A DNA stretch of 64,000 bases from a virus, in the IMG/VR virus record IMGVR_UViG_3300043313_001040, positions 1-64,000 of that record; one strand, written 5' to 3'. The notes below the pieces were generated by a model that saw only the letters and a program-made list of their open reading frames with translations, did no database searches and had not been told where the DNA came from. Position numbers and translations under genes: made by a program. Of the stretch, positions 2,641 through 46,200 are shown in pieces; position 1 is the first letter of the stretch; each line of letters opens with the position of its first letter.

Positions 2641-3788
2641 TACTCAGCCTCCGGTTTGTATTTGAGCGATGACACAAGGTCTACTTCAGTATCATCGCGT
2701 TTCCCTTTGTAGACTGGCTGATACAGGCTACCGCCTTTGTAGGCGTAGAGATACTGAACTTCCACGATGTCCCCTACTTTGGGTATCTCATGGTTGATCG
2801 GTATGGTTACATTTCCGACTTCGACAAAGTTACCTGATACGTGGTCCATTAGCCCTTTCTCTTTTTTGATTGCCAGGGCCACACTACGCTTATCATTGAC
2901 CTTGATTACCCGACAGCTCGCACTTGCTTTTAGTTTGAACTTCAGCGCTGGTCCCCCGCTTGACGGCCTGCCTGCTACATACCGAGACGCCTTATCTTTT
3001 AATGCTACCCCCTCCTTCCCGGCTTCTATAACTGACCGCAGCAGGTTCTTCTTCGATAATGCGGTGTTGGCCGTGTAGACCATCACGACTGTATCCTGGT
3101 CACCCAGGGATCGTATCAGCATCCCTAGCAGCAAGAGACGCTCTTCGTAGGGTAGCCCCCTGCAATCCTGGTCCTGGAGCTGCAGGATGTCGAAGACGTA
3201 GTATTTGTCTCCGCACGCCTCCCCGTCGATCAGGAAGACGAAATCGTTGTTTTGCAGCGCGCTGCAATATTCGCGCGGCGCTTCGATGATCTTCCCGGTC
3301 TTGTTATATGCGATGAACAGCCCTTTGCTGTTCTTGAATAACATCAGGCGCTTCCCGTCGTGCTTCTCCTGCATCAACCACATGTCGCTCTTGATTAGAT
3401 CTTTAACGTGAGATTCAGTGATCTCGTTGAGGAGCTGCGGTGCTATAATGCCATCAAACGCTGACGTGGATGGTCCCATTGTCACCTCGCTATCACTGGT
3501 TGCTACTCCGATTGGAACTTTAGGTGCCTTGCCTTTGGGCATCTCTTTATATCCCTTTTTCAGCTTCTCATTTACTATCGCCAGGTAAAGTTTTCTGGCT
3601 GCTTCAGCATGAGTTGGGCCAGCCTTCGTTCCACTATTCAGCGTGCTGCCACGCCTGCCATACTGGAATTTGACCGTGTGGTTAGCACCCACGTTCTCAA
3701 TCCAGATGTGATATACTTTGTCTGAGCTGCCTTCCCGGTATTCCAGGTCGCAGCGATTTGTTATTGTTGGTGTTGGCTTGAATGCCAT
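2640..3788 (-). CDS. WGR-domain ATP-dependent DNA ligase
   Basis: Seals nicks in duplex DNA using ATP, with a covalent lysyl-AMP intermediate. Residues about 10-85 form a WGR-type domain (YGRRGS near 43-48), a DNA-end/nick sensing module best known from PARPs. Residues about 115-290 are the nucleotidyltransferase: motif I EKHDGKR with the acceptor Lys142, motif III IDGEACG (187-193), motif IV EGVALKD (259-265) and motif V KFKLK (283-287). Residues about 295-382 look like the OB fold. At 382 residues it is short but complete for a viral ligase. Start at 3788 has AAAGGAG. It probably joins Okazaki fragments or repairs phage DNA. A perfect palindrome of the dispersed repeat family lies inside at 3252-3267. 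Confidence 0.92.
   Translation of the reverse strand: MAFKPTPTITNRCDLEYREGSSDKVYHIWIENVGANHTVKFQYGRRGSTLNSGTKAGPTHAEAARKLYLAIVNEKLKKGYKEMPKGKAPKVPIGVATSDSEVTMGPSTSAFDGIIAPQLLNEITESHVKDLIKSDMWLMQEKHDGKRLMLFKNSKGLFIAYNKTGKIIEAPREYCSALQNNDFVFLIDGEACGDKYYVFDILQLQDQDCRGLPYEERLLLLGMLIRSLGDQDTVVMVYTANTALSKKNLLRSVIEAGKEGVALKDKASRYVAGRPSSGGPALKFKLKASASCRVIKVNDKRSVALAIKKEKGLMDHVSGNFVEVGNVTIPINHEIPKVGDIVEVQYLYAYKGGSLYQPVYKGKRDDTEVDLVSSLKYKPEAE
3252..3267. repeat. Dispersed palindrome copy 1 (GC centre)
   Basis: TTGCAGCGCGCTGCAA, the only fully symmetric copy of the 16-bp family; inside the ligase gene. Confidence 0.75.
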
Positions 3789-20901: not shown

Positions 20902-22554
20902 TTACTGACGTTTAATGATCTGAATTAGGGAATCCGCTATGTTCTCGATCTCGTTCCTGACAAGAACGCTATCGAACCACTTGTGCAGCTTGTCGCTTCT
21001 TGCCCCAGGTTCTCCGACGTAGAGACCGATGGTGTAGACACCTTTCCGGTGCCACTCCTCCTTTCTGATGTGCTCGTCGGTGATCTCGCCGTCGGTGAAG
21101 AAGATCGTTAGATCGCTATTCACCAGCTCGGCCTCATTACTCCGCATGGTGTTAGCGAAGCCTTCGAAGCCTCCCGGGGTGTGGAGATGATTCAGAATCC
21201 TGGGATCGAATGGCATCGGGACCTTGGCGTAGTTTCCTCCACTCAGGATCATATTTTTGCACTCGATCTTTCGCATTCTTACCAACTCGTTGAGCACGTA
21301 GGCCAGGTAGCACCCTTGTTCGGCAACTCCGCTCATTGAACCGCTGCAGTCCAGAACGAAGCTGATCTCTTTTACTCCATAGGGATCATCGCCTTTGCGC
21401 AGATAGATGTCGTCCGCGCCGCGCATGAACTTGTTGAAGTCGATCTTATTAGTCGGGTTCCGACTGGTTATAACTCCCTCGCCGCCCTCCAGGAACTTCT
21501 CGAACAACCGAATCAGGCCGTCAGCCTTCTTCGTGTCGATGGTTCTGATTTTGTGGCCGAAGAACTCGTTAAGTGGAAGCACCAGTTTCTTGTCCTTGTG
21601 ATCTTGCACCTTCAAGTCCGGACGAGGCGGGTCCTTTTTGAGATGCCCACCTGACGGACTAGCGCCGCTGGTCCTGGCGACTGTTTCCTCGATTTCTTTG
21701 TGCTCGCTGCCATCGGCGGCCTCTGCGCCCTCTGGCATGGCTCCGTCGCCCGGGTCCTGAGGATCTGGCAAGTCGGTTCCATGTGGACCGGCAAACCCTT
21801 CTCCAGGCGCTAAACCGCCAGATCCTTCCGCGCCGCCCCCGCCTGTCTCGGGAAAGGTTTTAATCCAGCTCTGGACAATAGGAATGATCTCTTCGGTCCC
21901 GGCCGCGTGGATTGCTCGCCGATAATACCACCTTATCAGGTTGCGACGCCCATACTTCGGGTCGCCAGCGCCTTCGAATTGCATCTTTGGGTCAGGATCT
22001 TTTTTCACCCAATCCTCCATCAGCTTTGGGCTGTTCTCCATGCGGGTGCAGTCGAGAAACAGCCTTACTGCTGGTTGCGGTTTGCCTTCCGCTTTTATGG
22101 CCTCAAGGGCTGGGTCGCCCTTCATCTCGTCGATCAGCTTCAGGTAGCGGAGCCACCCAAACCGACGACGAAACATTCGACGCCACTTGGCCTCGATCCG
22201 AGCGTCTTCCATCAGGTTCCACAAGTGGAACGGGATTTTCGCGTCTTTCTGGAGCGTCGCCATCCGTTCATTGGCCCGGTTGGTAAAGAGGCTGTGGGCC
22301 CCTTCGTGATCGTAAACACGTTGAACGAATGCCATCTTGCCCCTCGACCAGAGAGTGCGTTCGGCGCACTTGTCCAGGTCGGAAGCAATGACGATATTGT
22401 GGCGGCTAATACGATTGTCGTAGCGCCACGATGCCTCTGGCTTGAAGCCCTCAGGCATAAAGGCTAGGTCGTAACCGTCAACGGTTGTCAGTCGCATGAA
22501 CCGACTTTCGATGTGGTAATCAACCAGCCTCGTTTTTTCGCGATAGTTTAGCAT
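20902..22554 (-). CDS. VWA-domain protein with HExxH motif
   Basis: 550 residues. The N-terminal part contains HEGAH (83-87) followed by NLMEDARIE (113-121), a zinc-binding signature seen in CobT-like and metallopeptidase-like phage proteins. A long Gly/Pro/Glu linker (about 235-320) leads to a C-terminal von Willebrand A domain with a complete MIDAS: DCSGS (402-406) and FTDGE (91st-95th residue of the domain, about 486-490). VWA proteins of this kind work with MoxR-type AAA+ ATPases as metal-dependent chaperones or remodelling complexes; the MoxR gene is directly upstream (8-bp gap). AAGGAGAAGT leader. Confidence 0.85.
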   Translation of the reverse strand: MLNYREKTRLVDYHIESRFMRLTTVDGYDLAFMPEGFKPEASWRYDNRISRHNIVIASDLDKCAERTLWSRGKMAFVQRVYDHEGAHSLFTNRANERMATLQKDAKIPFHLWNLMEDARIEAKWRRMFRRRFGWLRYLKLIDEMKGDPALEAIKAEGKPQPAVRLFLDCTRMENSPKLMEDWVKKDPDPKMQFEGAGDPKYGRRNLIRWYYRRAIHAAGTEEIIPIVQSWIKTFPETGGGGAEGSGGLAPGEGFAGPHGTDLPDPQDPGDGAMPEGAEAADGSEHKEIEETVARTSGASPSGGHLKKDPPRPDLKVQDHKDKKLVLPLNEFFGHKIRTIDTKKADGLIRLFEKFLEGGEGVITSRNPTNKIDFNKFMRGADDIYLRKGDDPYGVKEISFVLDCSGSMSGVAEQGCYLAYVLNELVRMRKIECKNMILSGGNYAKVPMPFDPRILNHLHTPGGFEGFANTMRSNEAELVNSDLTIFFTDGEITDEHIRKEEWHRKGVYTIGLYVGEPGARSDKLHKWFDSVLVRNEIENIADSLIQIIKRQ

Positions 22555-22562
22555 ACTTCTCC

Positions 22563-23732
22563 TTAGTTAGGCCGAATCGGGAAGTGGCGAGCGATCAGCT
22601 TACGCAACTGATCCAATTGCTCTGGACTCCGGTGGCCCTGGATATTTCTACCTACCCATACCAGGGCTGAGTCGAGCAACGTATTGCCAATGTCCATCTC
22701 GTTCTCGGCCATCTTGATTCCATCGCAAAGAATACGAACATCCGGCTCCAGCATCAGGAAGTTATCTGCCTTCAGCTTTTTACCTTCAGAGAGTAGCTTC
22801 GCGAACTTCGGTGTAAGCGACACGCTGAACCCGTGATCTTTGAGCACGGTAGCTATGATTCGCTTCACCGATTCCTCCGTGGTCTGCAGATCATACTGCA
22901 ACCATCTACCAGCTTCCGCTGGGTCACCTGCTTGAACGTCGAAACCCGCACCGATGTTTGTTGATGCGATGATTGAGATCATGTGACGCGGCGCGAAGAT
23001 CGTCTCTTGATTGGTTACGAGACCATCTTCTACGTTAATGATCCGGCCAGTCGAAATCGTGTAATACTCGATCCCGTCTGGCATCCTGAATGGAGATAGA
23101 CCGCTAATAAGCGGACTGCGTTCGCGCACTTTGATCCTATACAACTCGTCGATGTAAAGACAGACTCTCTTGCCCTGGGACGCGAGTCGAAACGCGCGAG
23201 CCAGTTCACCATCCTGCCATACTGCTGTAGTTGCGCCTCCCGATGGAGCCCATGGTCTAGGCCCTCCTTTCATCTGTTGAGCGTCCACGCCTTCATCGCC
23301 CTGCATGAGAACGACTTCATCGAACGGCTGCGAGTAGGCGAACACCTTCGCTGCCGTCGTTTTGCCCGAACCCTGGTCACCAATGAACAGGACCGGCTTC
23401 TTCGCTGCACCCGGAGGCACATACTTTCGAAGATACTTCATTACGCTGCTCTCATCACTCGCTTCTGGCGAGAGAGCAGCTTTGATTGCTTTCTTCTTCT
23501 CTACTGGTAACGGCTCGACGATCTTGGAGATGATCTCGTGCAGCTCTTTTTCAATCGGCGGGATGATGTCTTCCCGGCCGAGCTTTATTCTTGTTTCGCT
23601 GAGAATCTTGTAAACATGATCCTCGATTTCCGCTTGCTGTGTGGGGCTAAGCGCCATATACTTCTTCTTCCCTTTCTTCCTGGCCTCCCTCAGCTTCTTA
23701 CGTTTATGGTAAGCTGCGTCTCTGGTTGGCAT
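22563..23732 (-). CDS. MoxR-type AAA+ ATPase
   Basis: 389 residues. Basic N-terminal extension (about 1-35), helical region, then the AAA+ core: Walker A GDQGSGKT (118-125), Walker B CLYIDE (191-196) and a sensor-1 like 'IIASTN'. The order and 'GGPRPWAPSGGATTAVWQDGELARAF' region match MoxR/CbbQ-like ATPases. The frame is open upstream through a TTG inside the palindrome, but the ATG at 23732 is the natural start, right after AACAACAAC without Shine-Dalgarno. Its partner is the VWA protein downstream; together they probably remodel a target complex with ATP. Confidence 0.88.
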   Translation of the reverse strand: MPTRDAAYHKRKKLREARKKGKKKYMALSPTQQAEIEDHVYKILSETRIKLGREDIIPPIEKELHEIISKIVEPLPVEKKKAIKAALSPEASDESSVMKYLRKYVPPGAAKKPVLFIGDQGSGKTTAAKVFAYSQPFDEVVLMQGDEGVDAQQMKGGPRPWAPSGGATTAVWQDGELARAFRLASQGKRVCLYIDELYRIKVRERSPLISGLSPFRMPDGIEYYTISTGRIINVEDGLVTNQETIFAPRHMISIIASTNIGAGFDVQAGDPAEAGRWLQYDLQTTEESVKRIIATVLKDHGFSVSLTPKFAKLLSEGKKLKADNFLMLEPDVRILCDGIKMAENEMDIGNTLLDSALVWVGRNIQGHRSPEQLDQLRKLIARHFPIRPN

Positions 23733-23743
23733 TGTTGTTGTTT

Positions 23744-23759
23744 TTGCAGCACGCTGCAA
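23744..23759. repeat. Dispersed palindrome copy 4
   Basis: TTGCAGCACGCTGCAA, 11 bp upstream of the MoxR start, in the 83-bp gap 23733-23815. Confidence 0.85.
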
Positions 23760-23815
23760 AGAGGGTCGGACTCCTTGCAGCGAGGTTGTCAGACTTGTCC
23801 TACAGGGTCAAGTCT

Positions 23816-24016
23816 TTATTTTTCAGTGAAGGCAGCTATTCGCTCACCCAAAATGTCTGAGTATAACGTCATAGCTACCAGTTGCCGTTCGAGGCGTAAC
23901 TGCTCTGGCCCCTTTACGGAGCGATATGCCTCGCCCCGAAGAAACGCGGTCAGTTTGTCACGCTTTTCGTCCAGCTCTTTTTTTTCGGTCACCACCCTTT
24001 CTTGATGTGGTGCCAT
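23816..24016 (-). CDS. Small conserved-looking phage protein, 66 aa
   Basis: Pattern 'PHQERVVTEKKELDEKRDKLTAFL' near the start and 'LERQLVAMTLYSDILGERIAAF' at the end corresponds to a very widespread family of short helical phage proteins with no known function. Overlaps the next upstream gene by one base. Confidence 0.65.
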   Translation of the reverse strand: MAPHQERVVTEKKELDEKRDKLTAFLRGEAYRSVKGPEQLRLERQLVAMTLYSDILGERIAAFTEK

Positions 24017-24585
24017 TACGCCGCTTTCTTCGGGTTCTTCGGGTTCTCCACGCCTTCCTGGAGATACTCCGACAGCATCAGGTGCCCGAGGATCAGATCG
24101 TCGAGCATTTCCGATGTTACGTAGTCCGGGATGATTTGCGGCAACGGTGGGCTCATCCCGTCGTCGAACCCAATCCAGTTGTTCTCGCCATCGTCGATGT
24201 CCGGCACGAACCGGGGAGCCGGATGGCCAACGGTGCCCGCACCACTGTTGATACGAGCCGTGAAGATGAAGTCCGGCGAAAACCGGGGATCATCATCTAT
24301 GTCCATCCAACGTCCGCGTCCGTCGAACGGAGCGCGACCCGCCTTGAAGGCGTCGTAGTCCATCGGTTTGCGCAGCTTGAAGTAGTAATACCTCCCGTCT
24401 GCGTGCACGATGATTCCTTCCTGGACGTAGATCGTGTCAGGGTCTACGTCTTCTTCCTTCATGCCTTCCGGCACGTAACCCGGAATGACATCCGGCTTCT
24501 TGACTACCGCATAGCGGTGCTGGTTGGCGTCCAGCAGGTAAACTAGATCCCATTCGGGATCGAATTTGCGTTCTACTCTTGGCAT
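24016..24585 (-). CDS. Hypothetical protein, 189 aa
   Basis: Unrecognised acidic protein, rich in Asp, Pro and aromatic residues, beta-rich until about residue 130, then helical. AAC triplets but no clear AGGAG before the start. Sits inside the ATPase block (20.1-26.2 kb), so it may be a partner of the neighbouring AAA+ proteins; this is inference from position. Confidence 0.65.
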   Translation of the reverse strand: MPRVERKFDPEWDLVYLLDANQHRYAVVKKPDVIPGYVPEGMKEEDVDPDTIYVQEGIIVHADGRYYYFKLRKPMDYDAFKAGRAPFDGRGRWMDIDDDPRFSPDFIFTARINSGAGTVGHPAPRFVPDIDDGENNWIGFDDGMSPPLPQIIPDYVTSEMLDDLILGHLMLSEYLQEGVENPKNPKKAA

Positions 24586-24615
24586 AACTGTTGTTGCTTT
24601 CTATTTTTGTGGAAA

Positions 24616-24651
24616 GGGCGGCCCCGAATCAACCAAGGACCGAGGCCGCCC
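24616..24651 (-). other. Strong intercistronic hairpin
   Basis: Perfect 8-base arms GGGCGGCC and GGCCGCCC around a 20-base loop, between the AAA+ gene and 24016..24585. Leftward it is followed by CCCTTTCC rather than a clean T-run: a weak terminator or RNA processing site. Confidence 0.6.
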
Positions 24652-24669
24652 GACTTCCGTTGTTTCTAA

Positions 24670-26187
24670 TTAGGCTCCGAGCGACTTCTTGATCTTCTTA
24701 ACGTCGCCTGCCACTGCATCGACCTTCGGGCCGATGACTTCTTCGATTGCCACCCGCGAAGGCGACAATATTTGATGTGCTTTCTTGACCAGGCTCAGGT
24801 CCTTCTCGGCCTGAGTCGTGCCATCGCCGCGTGGGCGAGCCTTCTTCTGCATGACCTCGCCAGCGATCACCAACATTTCTGTGGTGACGCGCGCGTCGAT
24901 CTCTGCACCGAACTTGCCAATCGCACGCATCTTTGCGCGATTGATGCCGTTCACGATGTCCGCAGGCACCAGGTCCTTGAACGCCTCCCCGATAGCCGTA
25001 ATGTCCACGTCCGGCGCAATGAATTGCCCCGCGACATGTTGAACGAAACGACCAGCCGCCTCCGCATCTGGCGGCGTAAGCTCGATGTCGATGTCGACAC
25101 GGCCGGACCGCATGAATGCGTCGTTGATCTTCTCAGGGAAGTTGGTCGTGAAGACCGTGATGACTTCCGCGTTTTTGGCACCGACACCATCGAGCGTCTC
25201 CAGGATGGAGTTCATCTCTTTGGTCCGTTCCCCGCTGAAGATCGCGTCGCAATCCTCAACGAACAGCACCGATGGGCTGTAGAGCTGCGCCAGCTTGTAG
25301 GCCGACAGGAACTTCTCCGGAGTTTTCAGGTAGAAGTAAGTCCACCCGTGCTCCTTCGCGATCTGCGCCGTGTAATACGACGTGAGCGATTTACCGGTTC
25401 CGAACTTGCCCTTCAACAGCACGCCGCGCTTCACGGCGACTCCATTGATTCGGAAGTCCTGCGGACGTTTCATAACGTCCCAGACCTCCGTCTGCAGCTC
25501 GAACTCGATGTCTCGCGGAAGAATGAGCATGACCTCCTTGGTCACGTCCATATACTTCGGCGCACACTGCGTCGGATCGAAGTTCTCCGTTCCGACATAG
25601 CTCAGATCAAGTTCAACCGGCTGACCGCGATAGATGGAGTGTTCCTTCAGGAACCACTTCGCGGTTTCGACGACTTCCTTGATCGAAGGCTCGAATTTGC
25701 GTTTCACAACGCCCGACACTCCCAACGCGAGAGGTGCACTCGCACCCTTCACGAACAGGCTAAGGCTTCCACCTTCCCATGCGGGCGGAGCCATCTCGCC
25801 ATAAACAACCTGGACGCTTTCTTCCAGGCTGACGGCGATGTTGAGACGACGCGGCGGCCGAGGGCCGAAGAACGTCATTCTCTCCTTGGCGTGGGTGAAC
25901 CCATACACCTTTTCTAAGGCCCTGTTCACGGCCACGATGCCATCCAGAGGATAGCAGTCGAACTCGAAGGAGATTTCCACTGGCTGCTCCTCCAACTCCT
26001 CAGCCTGGAGCAATGCCTTGTGCAGCTCCTTGTAGCTGTTGGCCCGGACAAACCGTTGCCCGAACCGTAGGACCTCGAATTGAGGCTCGACTACCGCCGT
26101 CCCTTCTTTGACGGACGACTCCCTGCCGATCAGCTCCGTTGTTACCAGAGCTTTATCGGATACATCTGCTTTTCGTGTTTTTACCAT
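24670..26187 (-). CDS. AAA+ ATPase, Cdc48/FtsH-like core
   Basis: 505 residues from the chosen start (ATG 26187 after AGAAGTAGG; an upstream ATG at 26211 would add 8). The N-terminal 230 residues are unassigned and beta/alpha mixed. The C-terminal AAA+ module has Walker A GKFGTGKS (260-267), Walker B VLFVEDCD (about 307-314), a sensor-1 'FTTN' and the 'RSGRVD' arginine-finger block (about 361-366). This is the classical AAA arrangement of protein-unfolding or remodelling ATPases. It is a second ATPase next to the MoxR-VWA pair. Confidence 0.85.
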   Translation of the reverse strand: MVKTRKADVSDKALVTTELIGRESSVKEGTAVVEPQFEVLRFGQRFVRANSYKELHKALLQAEELEEQPVEISFEFDCYPLDGIVAVNRALEKVYGFTHAKERMTFFGPRPPRRLNIAVSLEESVQVVYGEMAPPAWEGGSLSLFVKGASAPLALGVSGVVKRKFEPSIKEVVETAKWFLKEHSIYRGQPVELDLSYVGTENFDPTQCAPKYMDVTKEVMLILPRDIEFELQTEVWDVMKRPQDFRINGVAVKRGVLLKGKFGTGKSLTSYYTAQIAKEHGWTYFYLKTPEKFLSAYKLAQLYSPSVLFVEDCDAIFSGERTKEMNSILETLDGVGAKNAEVITVFTTNFPEKINDAFMRSGRVDIDIELTPPDAEAAGRFVQHVAGQFIAPDVDITAIGEAFKDLVPADIVNGINRAKMRAIGKFGAEIDARVTTEMLVIAGEVMQKKARPRGDGTTQAEKDLSLVKKAHQILSPSRVAIEEVIGPKVDAVAGDVKKIKKSLGA

Positions 26188-26285
26188 TTGATACCTACTT
26201 CTTCTAAGCATGGGATTTGTTGTTGTTATTTACCTGACCCACCCACACTAAACTGGCTTCCAGGTAATCTGCTGTAACGTTGGCA

Positions 26286-26900: not shown

Positions 26901-27018
26901 AGCTATTACTTCTGCATTGGCCTTTCTAAAGGGCCGACTTGTTGTTGTTGTTACCGAATTGGCTTATGCCAACCGGACTAGAACACCGAAGGATTGAACT
27001 TCGATGCTCTGTGTCCGA

Positions 27019-27303
27019 TCAAGAACCACTTACCGGTAGGATAAATCCTACCGTTACTTCTCCGTCTTTCAGCTCTCTAAATCCGACTGCCAATACCAGG
27101 TAACGCTTGTCGTTGTAACGGATCACGTCACCCATGCTAACTGACGGAAGCTTCTGAGCCTGAATGTCGTTTTGTCCATAGTAATAAATGGTCGACAGGT
27201 TTGTTTCGGTCAGGTCGCTGACCAAGGTTACAGGGACTTCGACCTTTCGGATCTCCCCCTGGGCGAACATGTTGAGTTCGACTTCGTAGGTTATGTTTCT
27301 CAT
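27019..27303 (-). CDS. Hypothetical protein, 94 aa
   Basis: Unrecognised, all-beta by pattern (alternating hydrophobics throughout). One-base overlap with the upstream stop. A 118-bp gap follows it (26901-27018) that holds only two small hairpins and the AAC leader of the next gene. Confidence 0.65.
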   Translation of the reverse strand: MRNITYEVELNMFAQGEIRKVEVPVTLVSDLTETNLSTIYYYGQNDIQAQKLPSVSMGDVIRYNDKRYLVLAVGFRELKDGEVTVGFILPVSGS

Positions 27304-27644
27304 TACCCGTGCACCTCGACTTTGACTCCCGTGATCTTGGTGTAGATCTCCGCGAGGTTTTTGAACTTCTCGATGATGCTCTTGGCGTAGGGACCCGAGC
27401 GATGACGTGCCTGGATGTAAAGATCTCCTGTGTCCTCATCCGTTTTGAGCCACCAGTCGTTCGTGCCACCGATCACGAGATCGGGACCAACTGAATCGTG
27501 ATCTTCCCAGTCGGCCGGATAACAGTTCGGATGATCTGGTGATATGGCCGTCGCGAACAACAAGGCCAAGGTGACCTTGCTGAAATGCATTGCTGCTCTG
27601 AATTGCATTTCGGAAATAATGTTTCCGATTTCATTGTCTTTCAT
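27303..27644 (-). CDS. Hypothetical protein, first gene of the leftward run, 113 aa
   Basis: Unrecognised alpha/beta protein with Trp-rich middle. It is the first clear coding gene downstream of the structured non-coding region, with GAAAGGCAGAAGTATG before its start and a palindrome copy 28 bp upstream. Confidence 0.65.
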   Translation of the reverse strand: MKDNEIGNIISEMQFRAAMHFSKVTLALLFATAISPDHPNCYPADWEDHDSVGPDLVIGGTNDWWLKTDEDTGDLYIQARHRSGPYAKSIIEKFKNLAEIYTKITGVKVEVHG

Positions 27645-27671: not shown

Positions 27672-27687
27672 TTGCAGCGTGCTGCAA
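27672..27687. repeat. Dispersed palindrome copy 5
   Basis: TTGCAGCGTGCTGCAA between the structured region and the first leftward gene; partly overlaps a second small hairpin (27683-27700). Confidence 0.85.
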
Positions 27688-27699
27688 TCGTATGATTGC

Positions 27700-28500
27700 A
27701 TAACGACACCTGCTCCCAACACACCATTGCTGATGCGCTGGGAGCAAGCGGTCGGGTAGTTGACTGTCACTCAACTCCCGACATTGCTGATCTTGCCTAC
27801 TACAGTGGGCACTCACGGTGCTCTGCGCTTTTGCTTCTCACGCTTCACTGCTCTTCCGAGTCCGGTTGATTACGGCATACCCATACCAGGTTTGGACTGG
27901 CTTTGGTGTTGCTGGCGGTCGGCCCTCCCGGGTGACGATGCTACTCGTCCCGACACAGCTAATCCGTAATTCGGCAAGATTCTTGAATGTAATCTCCTGC
28001 ACTGACCACGAACCACTCGTGGCTGATGTTCTCTTCTGCACTCCATAGTTAACAGTCGCATATTGTTGGCGTTCAGAACTCCGATGGGAGCCAGGAAGTT
28101 TCTCTCAGGAAACCTTATCCTATCTCCATCCCGCATACTGCGGGGGCCCGGCGATGCAGTAACATCACCCGTTTAGTCTGGCCTTCATCTCGTCTGTGTG
28201 CCATTTTAGCGGAACACTCCACTTCAGAGATTACACTTTTTAGGAACCATCGTCAGCTACAGTCATATGAATTCAGGATGCGCGTCTACTCGCTAAGCGC
28301 CTCTCCGTGGAGTCTCCGGGCGTCTGCCGGTTAGACCTTTATAGGACAAGGTTATGCCTAGCGAAGTGATCCGAGTTACTCCGGGTTCACTTGCTACTCG
28401 CTAACATCCTGAATGACCATCAATGGTGACGACCATCCCTAATTAAATTTTCAAAGAACTGGCGATGTCCGAGAACATCGTCTGCTACCTATGCAAAACG
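27700..28500 (-). ncRNA. Candidate large structured non-coding RNA
   Basis: About 800 bp with no coherent gene on either strand in a genome where gaps are normally under 50 bp. It contains many perfect stems: 27711-27746, 27751-27782, 28006-28022 (CCACGA/TCGTGG), 28131-28145 (CCCGCA/TGCGGG), a GTTTC/GAAAC hairpin near 28100, and a multibranched domain closed by ATTCAGGATG (28271-28280) with CATCCTGAAT (28405-28414) that itself holds nested stems. Leftward sense is preferred because a boxA-like sequence and the terminator-like hairpin at 28507-28526 are oriented that way and the next genes lie downstream. Could be a phage large RNA, an antitermination leader or a regulatory RNA. Confidence 0.65.
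28448..28460 (-). promoter_or_regulatory. boxA-like antitermination sequence
   Basis: The leftward strand reads AGTTCTTTGAAAA, close to the boxA of Gram-positive-type rRNA leaders (core TTCTTTGAAAA). It lies at the start of the structured region and downstream of a terminator hairpin. A boxA in this position would fit Nus-factor or phage-type antitermination of a long untranslated RNA. Confidence 0.45.
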
Positions 28501-28526
28501 AAAAAAGGCCAAGGTTTCCCCTGGCC
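28496..28526 (-). terminator. Rho-independent-type terminator or attenuator, leftward
   Basis: On the leftward strand GGCCAGGGG pairs with CCTTGGCC around a short loop and is followed by TTTTTTCG-TTTT. It lies downstream of the small terminase gene and upstream of the structured RNA, so it either ends the terS transcript or acts as a leader attenuator. Confidence 0.75.
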
Positions 28527-28560
28527 TACTCGTATTATGCATACTAAGACAAAATTAAAA
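28527..28560 (-). promoter_or_regulatory. Possible leftward promoter
   Basis: The leftward strand has an AT-rich tract, then TTTGTCTTAGTATGCATAATACG: a TATG-CATAAT extended -10-like box with a T-rich upstream element but no good -35. The TTTGTCTTA sequence recurs at the dyad near 55957. Weak evidence. Confidence 0.3.
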
Positions 28561-28607: not shown

Positions 28608-29186
28608 CTAAACTTTGGAGGTCGGCCACTCCTTCTCGTGAATCGCGATTAAAGCTTCGTCGACTGCTTCACGCAGGAGCAGCTCGATCTCTTCCTTGGG
28701 ACGCATCTCAACAACCGGTGCCATCTTTGACGGCAGCGACAGCATGATTGTGCGGACCGCTGTCATCGCCTTGGAGACCCACAGCTTGCAGTCGTCGTTC
28801 GTGTGGTATTGGCCGAGCCGAATCTTTTGCTCCAGCTCCAGGCGCTCGCATACTGCAGTAAGTTTTCGAATCTCCAGCTCTGACTTCATCGGAGACGGCG
28901 GCTCGCTTCCGCCTAACGAACTAACCTTGCCGGTCTCGTCCATCCAGGCTTTCCATGCGAGCACGTTGTAGAGGCCCTTTCTTCGCCCCGGGCATCCGCT
29001 CTCACGTGTCCAGCGATTCACCGTTTCACGCGCGATCCCCAGCGCGTCGGCCAGGTCTTGCTGGGTGCTAACAAAACTTTCCTCATCGTCTTCGCTCTCC
29101 GTCATCTTGGCCAAATCAGCGTCCGACATCTTCACGTCCTTCATCGCTTTACGAAGGCGCTTGCTTGTTGCTTCTTTTGTGGGCAT
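28608..29186 (-). CDS. Terminase small subunit-like protein
   Basis: 192 residues. The region about 42-82 (TQQDLADALGIARETVNRWTRESG then a basic wing and 'LYNVLAWKAWM') is a Nu1-like winged helix-turn-helix; the C-terminal 90 residues are helical with a long coiled-coil-like segment and basic end, as in lambda-type small subunits that bind the cos site and the large subunit. It is read away from the large terminase, with only 18 bp between the two starts, unlike the usual co-directional order. Assignment rests on the HTH, the size and the position. Confidence 0.7.
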   Translation of the reverse strand: MPTKEATSKRLRKAMKDVKMSDADLAKMTESEDDEESFVSTQQDLADALGIARETVNRWTRESGCPGRRKGLYNVLAWKAWMDETGKVSSLGGSEPPSPMKSELEIRKLTAVCERLELEQKIRLGQYHTNDDCKLWVSKAMTAVRTIMLSLPSKMAPVVEMRPKEEIELLLREAVDEALIAIHEKEWPTSKV

Positions 29187-29204: not shown

Positions 29205-31010
29205 ATGGATATTATCGAGCAAGCTATTCGTGACGCTTGCACTCCAGCAGATAGACGGCCGCCGTGGAAATGGGCCGAGGATTATTGTTACGTCGCGACC
29301 TCACCGTTCCCCGGCAAATGGCGCTCTGATAACTCGCCCTGGGTAAAGGAACTCATGGAGTCCTTCGCTGATGGTGTCGTTAAAACGATCTCGGTCATGT
29401 GCTCTGCTCAGTCGGCCAAGACTGAGACCATGCTCGTCATGCTGAACTGGATCATCAGCGAAGATCCAGGCCCGACCATGTGGGTCACGAGTAACGACGA
29501 CGAAGCCCTCAAGTTCTGCATCGAGCGGCTCATGCCGACTCTCAACTCATGCGACAAAGTTCGCGAGCTGATGCCGAAGAATCTGACCGGCTCCATCGAC
29601 CGCAGAAAAGCCAAGGCACAGGAGATTCACTTCCCCCGAATGACGCTGGAAGTTATCGGCTCCAACTCCGAGTCGAAGCTGCAGTCTAAGCCGCGCCGCT
29701 GGCTACTGATGGACGAGGTTCGCAACTGGCCGGATGGCGCACTGCCGATGGTGCTCAAACGAACCCGCGCCTATTACAACGCCAAGCGCATCATCATCTC
29801 GACGCCCAAAGATCAGCATGATGCGGTGCACCAGAACTTCATCCAGGGCGACCAGAGGCATTGGCACATTTCGTGCCCCAAGTGCGGTCATGATCAGGTA
29901 ATGACCTGGGAAAAAATTAAGTGGGACGAAAACGGGGTCACAAGGCCTAACGGATTGTGGGACTTCGATGAGATGGCTAAGACCATCCGCTTCGAATGCG
30001 AGAAGAACAAATGCCAGATTACGGACAACCCCGTCGACCGCCGACACTTCGCTCGTAACGGAAAGTGGGTGCCGCACAACCGGCTGGCTCCAAAACACTA
30101 TAGGTCCTACTGCTGGAATGCGCTGATCCCAACCTGGGTTCGCTGGCGCGATCTCGTGGAGGAATTCATCAATGCGAACAAAGCTCTGTCATGGGGGGAC
30201 CCGGAGCCGCTCAAGACCTTCGTGAACGAAACACTGGGCGAACCGTGGGAAGATCGTATGCAATGGGGCGATGATTCCGCATACTTGGAAGCTCGCAAGG
30301 CCGACTACCGCATGGGCGAAGCCTGGGCCGATGAGAAGACCCGCTTCATTGGTGTCGACGTTCAGAAGGACTATCTGCGTTACGTGGTCCGCGCATTCGC
30401 TGATGGCGGCCGCTCGCGGCTCATTGACTATGGCACGCTGAAGAATTTCGATGATCTGAAGGGAAAGATCGCCGAGCTGCACGTCGACCCAGATAACGTC
30501 ATCCTGGATGCGGCCCACAAGACGCCGGACGTTTATAAAGCTGTCATCGACTCCGGTTACACGTGGAAGCCGTTCTGGGGCGACGACCGCGTTTACTTTA
30601 CTCTGAAGGGCGTTAAATCTGTCTGGACGGTCAACACCGTCGATCCGTTCATTGGCACCCGTTACGAGGGGCGCGCCCAGCCGATCCGGTTGTTTCACTG
30701 GAGCAATCCGTCGATCAAGGACACGCTCATGATGATGATGCAGGGGAAATCTTCCCAGTGGGAGATCCCAAAGCACGTCGGCCAGGATTACGTCCTGGAA
30801 GTGACGGCCGAATACCGACAGGAAGTCGTCGACCTGCGCGGACAGATTCGTTATAAATACGCCAGGAAGCGTAAGGAAAACCACGCATTCGACTGCGAGT
30901 GCATGATCCTCACGGCGGCCATCATCAACCGCCTCGTCGGTCTACCGGAACCCTTGGAGAGGGCCCCGGTAGAACCGATGGCTAAAGAGGAGACTTTCGC
31001 TGCGTTGTGA
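29205..31010 (+). CDS. Terminase large subunit, lambda gpA type
   Basis: 601 residues. ATP-driven DNA packaging motor and cos-cutting nuclease. The ATPase part has a deviant Walker A (CSAQSAKTE, 66-74) and Walker B LLMDE (167-171). A Zn-finger-like CPKC (224-227) and C-x4-C (265-270) pair follow. The nuclease domain begins near 'FIGVDVQ' with the catalytic Asp385. This order is that of the gpA/GpA-like family, implying lambda-type packaging rather than headful packaging. ATG at 29205 was preferred over the longer frame starting at 29058, which would run through the divergent terS gene. Confidence 0.93.
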   Translation: MDIIEQAIRDACTPADRRPPWKWAEDYCYVATSPFPGKWRSDNSPWVKELMESFADGVVKTISVMCSAQSAKTETMLVMLNWIISEDPGPTMWVTSNDDEALKFCIERLMPTLNSCDKVRELMPKNLTGSIDRRKAKAQEIHFPRMTLEVIGSNSESKLQSKPRRWLLMDEVRNWPDGALPMVLKRTRAYYNAKRIIISTPKDQHDAVHQNFIQGDQRHWHISCPKCGHDQVMTWEKIKWDENGVTRPNGLWDFDEMAKTIRFECEKNKCQITDNPVDRRHFARNGKWVPHNRLAPKHYRSYCWNALIPTWVRWRDLVEEFINANKALSWGDPEPLKTFVNETLGEPWEDRMQWGDDSAYLEARKADYRMGEAWADEKTRFIGVDVQKDYLRYVVRAFADGGRSRLIDYGTLKNFDDLKGKIAELHVDPDNVILDAAHKTPDVYKAVIDSGYTWKPFWGDDRVYFTLKGVKSVWTVNTVDPFIGTRYEGRAQPIRLFHWSNPSIKDTLMMMMQGKSSQWEIPKHVGQDYVLEVTAEYRQEVVDLRGQIRYKYARKRKENHAFDCECMILTAAIINRLVGLPEPLERAPVEPMAKEETFAAL

Positions 31011-43270: not shown

Positions 43271-46200
43271 CCCAGCTTTTGTTGGCACCGGTCTTACTGA
43301 TCTCAAACAGGCACTCGCTGGCCTGAACAAGGGTGGAGGCCTGGAGTGGGGTGGCTTTGCTGGCCTCAGCGAATTGGCTACCGGTGCAAGTAAGACTAAG
43401 GCAGTTATCGAGTCGATTAAATGGGCCGCATTCGCCAGGGCTGGTGTTGCGGGGTTCATGTCTATTGTCCCAGCAGCCTACGCTCTGATGTTCGGCATCC
43501 GGAAGGCCGTTACTGAGTCAGGAATCCTTCAGGCTGCGTTGCAGCGACTGGGTGAGACAAAGGTCCTCACCGCTCAGTTCACGCAGTTCTTGGGCAGCGT
43601 GCAGCTTGCGCGACAGCGTGTAGGAGAGCTTTACGCTTTCGTGGCGAACTCGAAGTTCAACATGGGCGAGGCTGGTAACGCTTCGAAAACCCTTTCCATT
43701 CTGACTAATGGAGCCGAGGGCAGTATCGGCAGCCTTCAAATGCTCGGCCGGGTTGCAACTGCCACGGGCAATAGCCTGGAAGAACTAGCTCTCTATTACG
43801 GCAAGTTCAGCCAGCAAAGCCGCAATGGCGAGGACATCTCCGGCACCGTCCAGGCACTCAGGGAGATGGGCGTTATTACCGAATCGACGGCCGCCTCGCT
43901 GATCAACCTACAGAAATCGGGCGCATCTGCCAGCCAGCTCATGTCGGCGTTCAGGAACGACATCGCCGCCGTCGCCGCCGCTTCGACCGATACCAGCGAC
44001 TCCATTGAGGAACTCCAGGATCGAGTTGAAAAGCTCAAGCAATCCGCCGCTGCGGGCTTCGGGAAAGCCTGGATGAAACAGGAAGCTCGTGACCTGGAAG
44101 GTCAGGTCAAGCTCTGGACCGCAATTAGCGGCGCTACCGAGCAGTTTGGCAAGAGCCTGGAGTATGTCACAAGGCCCGCCAACAATCTAAAGAACGCGCT
44201 CTACGACATGGCGGGAACAGACGCGTTCAAGTCATCTCTAAAAACCTTGTCCGACATGGTGTTCATGCTGCCCATAGCCATTGCTGGATACAGCACGTTA
44301 AAAACATTGATGGCCGGGGAGTTACCCGGAAAGGGCTTGATCAAAACAGCGGGTGGCGCACTCAAGACAGTGTTAAATCCTGCTGCTGCCGCTAGGGGAC
44401 GAGGAACTGCCCTGGCTGGTGCTGCTGACGATATTCTTGAAGTTGCCTTGGCTACTCAAGCAGCTGGCGGAACAGTCACTCGTGGAACAGTAGCGAAGCT
44501 GGCAGGAACCGAAGCACTAAGTAAGGGTTTCATGGGTCTGGGTAATGTTCTGAGTGCTGCCGGGGCAGGCATGGTTCGCGTCGGCGCGTTATTGGCCCGA
44601 CTCGCCCCAGTGGGACTGCTTGTTACTGCCAGCACAATGCTTTTGGCAAAAGCCTGGGAGACTTATCGTGATCGTCAAGAACGTGCCGCCAGTGCCGCCA
44701 GAGATGCGCGAGACGCGATGGCAACACGATCCGGTTTAGCTAAAGAGATCGAAAGCGTAAAAACCCTTGATGACAAGACTCGTAAGTTGGCTGAAGCCCG
44801 CAAGTTGCTCAATTCTGCGATAGCCGAGCGTGCCAGAGTTCAATCTGATTCTTCCTCTACCGAGGATGAAGAGTCGGCCGCTATCGCTCTTGTTCATGAA
44901 CGAGAAAGAGCAGTGAAGGCTATCTCGGAAATCAATGTAAAAAACCTGGGGATGACCGAGAAGGAATTCTCCTATCGTCTTCGGCAGATCGACGTGGAGA
45001 ACGAGATTGCCGACATTCAGTATCAGGCGGCCATGAACAGGGCCAATGCGGTTCAGCGAGAGATCATGGCCAACACTCGTTTGGAAATGCTTCATAAAAG
45101 AATGGCCGAGCACGAAGCTATCCGGAAAGAGGAACCAGCGCTTCTCGCAAATCAGCAGGCCATTGATCAAGAACGAGCAGAACGTCGAGGCAAAGCTGCT
45201 GGCGCGAAAGGCGAATTGTTCAATCTCAGCAGGGAGGCGGTAGAACTTCGTAAGGAGATGAACATGCCATCTCAAAGGAGCGAGACTCGTCAACGCGAGT
45301 TGCGCGCCAGGATGGAGATTAACCTCGCTCGTCAGCAGCAGCTTCAGGGACAAATCGCTGGATTCCAAAATCCAACCGCCAAAGAGGAGCAGTTAAAAGC
45401 TGAGCGAAAAAGGATGATCGAGCAAGGCTCTTCCGAGCATAACTTGTTAATGCAGCAGGCGGAAAATGAGACCGATCCTCATAGGGCCAAAGAACTCCGA
45501 CTGGAAGCTGCTCGCGTTGTGGCGAGAAAAGACGATGCGCTGAAAGAGGAGGCAGCTCAGCTTGAGGCTACTGCCAAAGAACGCAAAGCCGCTGCCGACA
45601 AAGAGATTCGAGATTACGATACCAGCCGGTATGTTCGCAAGCTCCAGGACAAAGCAACCATGGCTGCCGCAGCCGGTAACTTTGGTCTCGCCGCTGCCTA
45701 CCAAAAGGCCGCCCAGGATCGTGAAGACGCCACGAATGACGCGAACCGGTTAGACCAACTGACCCTTGAAATGGGTGGCAAGTTTGCCGCTGCCATGAAA
45801 CTTTCACAGGAGCAGGAAGATCGGAAGAGAACCCGCGCCGCCACGGCCGAGGCACGCTTTGGACCAGAAGGCACCGCCACCCGCACGTTGCGTGAACGTC
45901 AGCTTGCGCTCGCTGAGCGCGGCCTTGGGATTCCAGGGTTCGCGGGTCCAGGAATCAGGGGAGCTGCAGCCGGTCGCGAGCTGATCAAGATGCAGGACAT
46001 TGATCAATTCAATCAGACTCTTCAAGAGCTGATGCAAGGTATCGAGGCGACTCCGGAGAACGTCAAAAACGCCACTCGGACAGCTCAGCAACTCACGGCG
46101 GCTGACATTATCGAAAAGACTGCCGACCTGCAGGGAGTTGGCAGCATGGGTGACAGCCTGACCAGGGTAGGTGGTGGCGGCGGATTTTATGCTGGTGCAG

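Follow-up and report, generated by a model that had tools for sequence, protein, structure and literature searches.

The window analysed here covers 64,000 bases of an uncultured virus record that is 72,014 bases long. Genes for terL, portal and the major head protein are among those read rightward, starting at 29205. On the minus strand, a gene resembling the terminase small subunit (terS-like) is followed by a stretch of approximately 800 bases and, beyond it, by open frames in a row from 27644 to the left end of the window. A single close relative, L004 (4,751 bases; TerL ~81% in the portion available), was obtained from TerL searches. The features of the locus are listed below in the leftward direction.

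28608–29186, minus strand: terS-like gene (phrog_57, E 3e-21; 63% to L004), upstream of the RNA
28533–28546, minus strand: TAGTATGCATAATA, common to L004 (blastn anchor), possible promoter or operator
28496–28527, minus strand: intrinsic terminator that probably belongs to the terS-like gene (hairpin with a 9-bp stem and a GAAA loop, then a T-run)
27690–28490, minus strand: structured RNA core, ends approximate (fold z −6.45 compared with −4.25 on plus; coding controls; syntenic structured stretch in L004)
28463–28480, minus strand: first hairpin, CGATGTT-CTCG-GACATCG (pair probability 0.93; L004 has a hairpin in the corresponding position)
28448–28459, minus strand: boxA-like GTTCTTTGAAAA (matches the full consensus, as does only one other site in the 64 kb)
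28240–28442, minus strand: domain 1 with a 10-bp stem and multiloop (predicted helices, p 0.7–0.99)
27986–28237, minus strand: domain 2, predicted, with a 12-bp closing stem (p 0.86)
27790–27980, minus strand: domain 3, predicted, with an 8-bp closing stem (p 0.94)
27751–27782, minus strand: 3' hairpin A, GTCGGG/CCCGAC (p 1.0; in L004 the outer pairs are retained, one of them with both bases changed)
27707–27750, minus strand: 3' hairpin B, with a 20-bp stem that is a candidate for processing (p 0.99; 19/19 compared pairs kept in L004)
27683–27700, minus strand: small hairpin TGCAATC-ATAC-GATTGCA (p 0.99; no counterpart seen in L004)
27672–27687: palindrome TTGCAGCGTGCTGCAA, a dispersed DNA site (also in L004 at 1963–1978, behind its RNA)
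27303–27644, minus strand: gene that follows the RNA directly (113 aa, without a family; L004 has another gene in this position)
27019–27303, minus strand: second gene behind the RNA (94 aa; 44% identity to the first gene behind the L004 RNA)

The longest open frame within the stretch was 88 aa. A PHROG search at E 0.1 gave no match for five frames from the window and three from L004, and tblastx of the stretch against its L004 counterpart produced nothing below E 0.18; the same test scored the neighbouring small gene at 2e-9. Neither comparison revealed a conserved protein in the region, and the absence of a gene from these ~800 bp, as described in an earlier note on this DNA, was upheld.

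When bases 28480–27650 were folded as the minus strand, a minimum free energy of −319.8 kcal/mol (z −6.45) was obtained, which none of 20 shuffles equalled, while the plus strand gave z −4.25. A repeat fold with slightly different ends and 16 shuffles gave z −4.8 and −3.5 for the minus and plus strands, respectively, and sixteen 800-base folds of coding sequence from the right arm of the window ranged from −2.1 to +1.7. The many stems previously reported are thus real and above chance. The fold comprised three domains (28442–28240, 28237–27986 and 27980–27790) followed by three hairpins at the 3' end; most helices of the minus strand exceeded a probability of 0.8. The 10-bp stem said to close a multibranch domain was recovered as TTCAGGATGT/GCATCCTGAA, enclosing ~120 nt and nested helices at a mean pair probability of 0.94. 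In 250-base scans the signal was strong at both ends of the stretch and weak in the middle, making the middle domains the least certain. Within domain 1, TTAGCGAGTAG occurs twice on the minus strand (28403–28393 and 28293–28283). Both copies could pair with TTCGCTAGG, so domain 1 might switch between two folds; the MEA fold strongly favoured one of the two pairings (p 0.97).

The preference for the minus strand exceeded the effect of composition and, based on this preference, the stretch is taken to be transcribed leftward. GNRA tetraloops were present in 5/14 cases on minus-strand folds compared to 0/12 on plus-strand folds; together with two G-U pairs of hairpin B that are present in both phages, they point to a minus-strand RNA. 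These observations also bear on the proposal that the stretch is not an RNA but a DNA element rich in inverted repeats, such as a cos or pac site, an origin or an operator cluster. The stretch adjoins the terminase genes, beside which packaging sites are often found, it is abutted by a dispersed palindrome, and its plus strand too folds better than shuffles. Inverted repeats would, however, be strand-symmetric, whereas the minus strand folds better beyond composition in both the window and L004. With the GNRA loops confined to that strand and the G-U pairs kept, a DNA element was judged improbable.

The palindrome (TTGCAGC-RY-GCTGCAA, up to one mismatch) was found in 13 copies in 72 kb. Eleven of these lie in the window, where 0.09 would be expected by chance, at positions 3252, 10659, 15964, 23744, 27672, 31013, 35798, 41883, 50143, 55800 and 59810; the others lie at 64850 and 67092 of the record. 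Copies were located both in and between genes at a spacing of 2.2–8.3 kb, which is more even than random (p 0.0002), and none was found in the more distant TerL relatives searched. Because the site is dispersed, the copy at 27672–27687 is not a part special to the RNA. It could be a partition site, a repressor site (stoperator-like) or a DNA-organising site.

A counterpart of the stretch was present in L004. It comprises ~790 bases without a conserved gene (z −7.76 for the minus and −6.80 for the plus strand), placed between a terS-like gene (63%) and a homologue of the window gene 27019–27303 (44%). Blastn gave two anchors common to both stretches, TATGCATAATA to the 5' side and the palindrome to the 3' side. 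In the sequence between them, the 3' ends were more alike than 200 of 200 shuffles. For the 5' ends (hairpin and boxA-like site) the likeness was marginal, with 5 of 200 shuffles as good, and the middle showed no recognisable likeness (44 of 200 as good). A base-pair-aware alignment of the whole stretches, performed with a simple custom program, did not stand out from domain-permuted controls, 8 of 40 of which did as well.

The stem letters of the two abutting 3' hairpins were then cut out by hand and compared pair by pair. All 25 compared pairs were standard in both phages, and in seven both partners had changed; shuffles averaged 3.5 such pairs (4 of 500 reached this count) and sliding gave 0–1. 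In hairpin B, which is 20 bp in the window and 19 bp in L004, six pairs had changed on both sides and three on one side. Since alignment by hand favours structure, the compensatory count is support rather than proof. The comparative folding suggested in the earlier note, here with two sequences only, supports the 3' hairpins, which are compensated in L004, and not the middle domains, which are not recognisably alike. An unconserved middle is also what a decayed or chance-structured spacer of no function would present; such a spacer is nevertheless highly unlikely, as length, place and strong folding have been kept by two phages at ~80% TerL identity and the 3' hairpins carry compensatory changes. 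The large structured non-coding RNA that had been proposed is thus supported by folding statistics, strand asymmetry, the syntenic counterpart and the compensatory changes at the 3' end. Very probably, the ~800-base stretch yields an elaborately folded RNA ahead of the long gene row.

Two further elements noted earlier, a terminator-like hairpin with a T-run (hairpin at 28527–28506) and a boxA-like sequence (GTTCTTTGAAAA at 28459–28448), were both confirmed to be present. Judged by its sequence, the boxA-like site may be real; its counterpart in L004, GTTTTTTAGAAA, is at the same place with two mismatches, the level expected by chance in that contig. No terminator was predicted at the equivalent place in L004. 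Similarly, none was found between the RNA and the next gene (27644) in the window, nor between the corresponding features in L004, and a search for a sigma-70 consensus promoter for the RNA found none. The terminator at 28527–28496 is more likely to sit outside the conserved RNA, and it is suited to ending the transcription of terS. As it precedes boxA in the direction of transcription, a boxA complex cannot suppress it. An attenuator calls for a conserved terminator between the element and its genes, and the only strong minus-strand terminator is upstream. The suggestion of an attenuator plus antitermination leader was weakened by these findings, and the attenuator reading was dropped because of the order in which terminator and boxA occur.

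More generally, the stretch may be an extended 5' leader which regulates the leftward genes in cis, as a switch, an attenuator or a put/EAR-type antitermination element, and is never released. In both phages it immediately precedes the gene row and no terminator intervenes, a boxA-like site is present, and the two TTAGCGAGTAG copies would allow mutually exclusive pairings with TTCGCTAGG. Against this, a leader of 800 nt would be a long one, the strong terminator comes ahead of boxA and has no predicted equivalent in L004, one pairing is preferred in the MEA fold, and the first downstream gene is not the same in the two phages. A leader is accordingly regarded as possible rather than likely. 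Put of HK022 and EAR are likewise structured RNAs heading a gene row; they are short elements with terminators downstream, whereas here the only strong terminator is upstream of the element. The same order of parts (hairpin, boxA-like site, long untranslated structured RNA) is seen in the rRNA operon leaders with boxA, which serve NusB/NusE antitermination. The stretch differs from these in having one boxA-like site, imperfect in L004, and an RNA unrelated to rRNA (no Rfam match).

The Rfam covariance-model search proposed in the earlier note matched no family in the window or L004, at either the gathering score or E values up to 5, with GOLLD, ROOL and OLE included. GOLLD is a large structured RNA, often >800 nt, of phages and prophages, and its 3' region is better conserved than its 5' region; ROOL is a large ornate RNA, also of phages and prophages, and the functions of both are unknown (PMC12286853). 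A divergent member of either family would agree with the size, the phage carrier and the better conserved 3' part, as in GOLLD (PMC12286853), the last being drawn here from two sequences only. However, in addition to the lack of an Rfam match, no tRNA was found in the window by ARAGORN, and GOLLD and ROOL are often, not always, near tRNA islands. The RNA is instead flanked by the terS-like gene and the row of leftward genes. For these two reasons, no Rfam match and no tRNA neighbour, it was not filed as a GOLLD or ROOL member; the earlier suggestion of one of these families is unsupported, and a divergent member is very improbable. A further trait of GOLLD and ROOL is an RNA-only homo-oligomeric cage.

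The best explanation, to which a probability of roughly one in two is given, is that the stretch is a large (~750–800 nt) structured non-coding RNA which is read leftward with the gene row, released and active as a stand-alone molecule, the last of these being the least certain step. Transcription would start in the gap that separates the RNA from the terS-like gene. The boxA-like site that follows the first hairpin would let the polymerase cross 800 untranslated bases without being stopped by Rho, as happens in rRNA leaders. As no terminator separates the RNA from the downstream mRNA, cleavage is proposed at the ~20-bp 3' hairpin B, a plausible substrate for RNase III; an RNase III-like cut there would free the folded RNA from the mRNA. 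The freed RNA would then act on its own, in the manner of GOLLD and ROOL. The two phages share the RNA but not the gene immediately downstream of it, which weakly favours a separate RNA over a gene-specific leader.

Tentatively, and at somewhat less than even odds, the RNA may represent a novel class among the large ornate phage RNAs, with no relation to GOLLD, ROOL or OLE. It would derive from a boxA-bearing leader next to the terminase genes and be released by cleavage at the conserved 3' hairpin, its 3' part being closely preserved and its body changing fast. Large structured phage RNAs are so far few, and what they do is an open question; this is apparently an independent further case of such size. 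Its genome setting is different, next to terminase genes and at the head of a long row of genes rather than near tRNAs. It would provide a separate case for asking what these RNAs do and whether cage-like assembly is common, and it bears on how phages get 800 untranslated bases transcribed.

The RNA seems to be narrowly distributed, as far as can be told from records of which many are fragments and from scans that all used short exact patterns. Searches with the RNAs of the window and L004 by blastn gave no matches in the phage collection, and TerL alignment found no relative in genome contigs. Patterns of the 3' hairpin DNA, run against viral and genome contigs, gave besides L004 only matches judged to be chance: L006 and most of L057–L073 lie inside long open frames, L055 and L056 are tRNA-like sequence, and L054 is without the hairpin. 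A pattern combining the palindrome with a ribosome-binding site gave no matches and was too strict to recover even L004. Among 23 more distant relatives, the 13-base core was found in the records of three, only with one mismatch, and the more distant relatives (TerL ~55%) had no counterpart in the parts examined. Outside two structured gaps in L087 and L096, an open-frame and folding screen of seven larger relatives, whole or in part, revealed no comparable stretch; the candidate G022 45120–46142 (z −4.4) reads as a run of small overlapping genes. Two gene-free stretches, L023 2982–3691 and L039 1104–2018, were also set aside, their folding over the full length being not above background.

Separately, two stretches without long open frames in TerL relatives folded well with 16 shuffles, L096 5262–5679 (minus strand, z −6.0) and L087 3917–4401 (plus strand, z −4.2); neither had an Rfam match. 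Within the window, the intergenic region 26905–27054 contains four stable hairpins on the minus strand (250-base window, z −6.3). One of them is T-arm-like, CGAAG-TTCAATC-CTTCG, and ARAGORN called no tRNA there. Further along the minus strand, 20902–26211 encodes an AAA ATPase (24670–26211), then an AAA_5 protein (22563–23759) and a 550-aa protein of unknown family. A search for the ATPase in viral contigs found none, and its relatives occur in N4-like and other phages.
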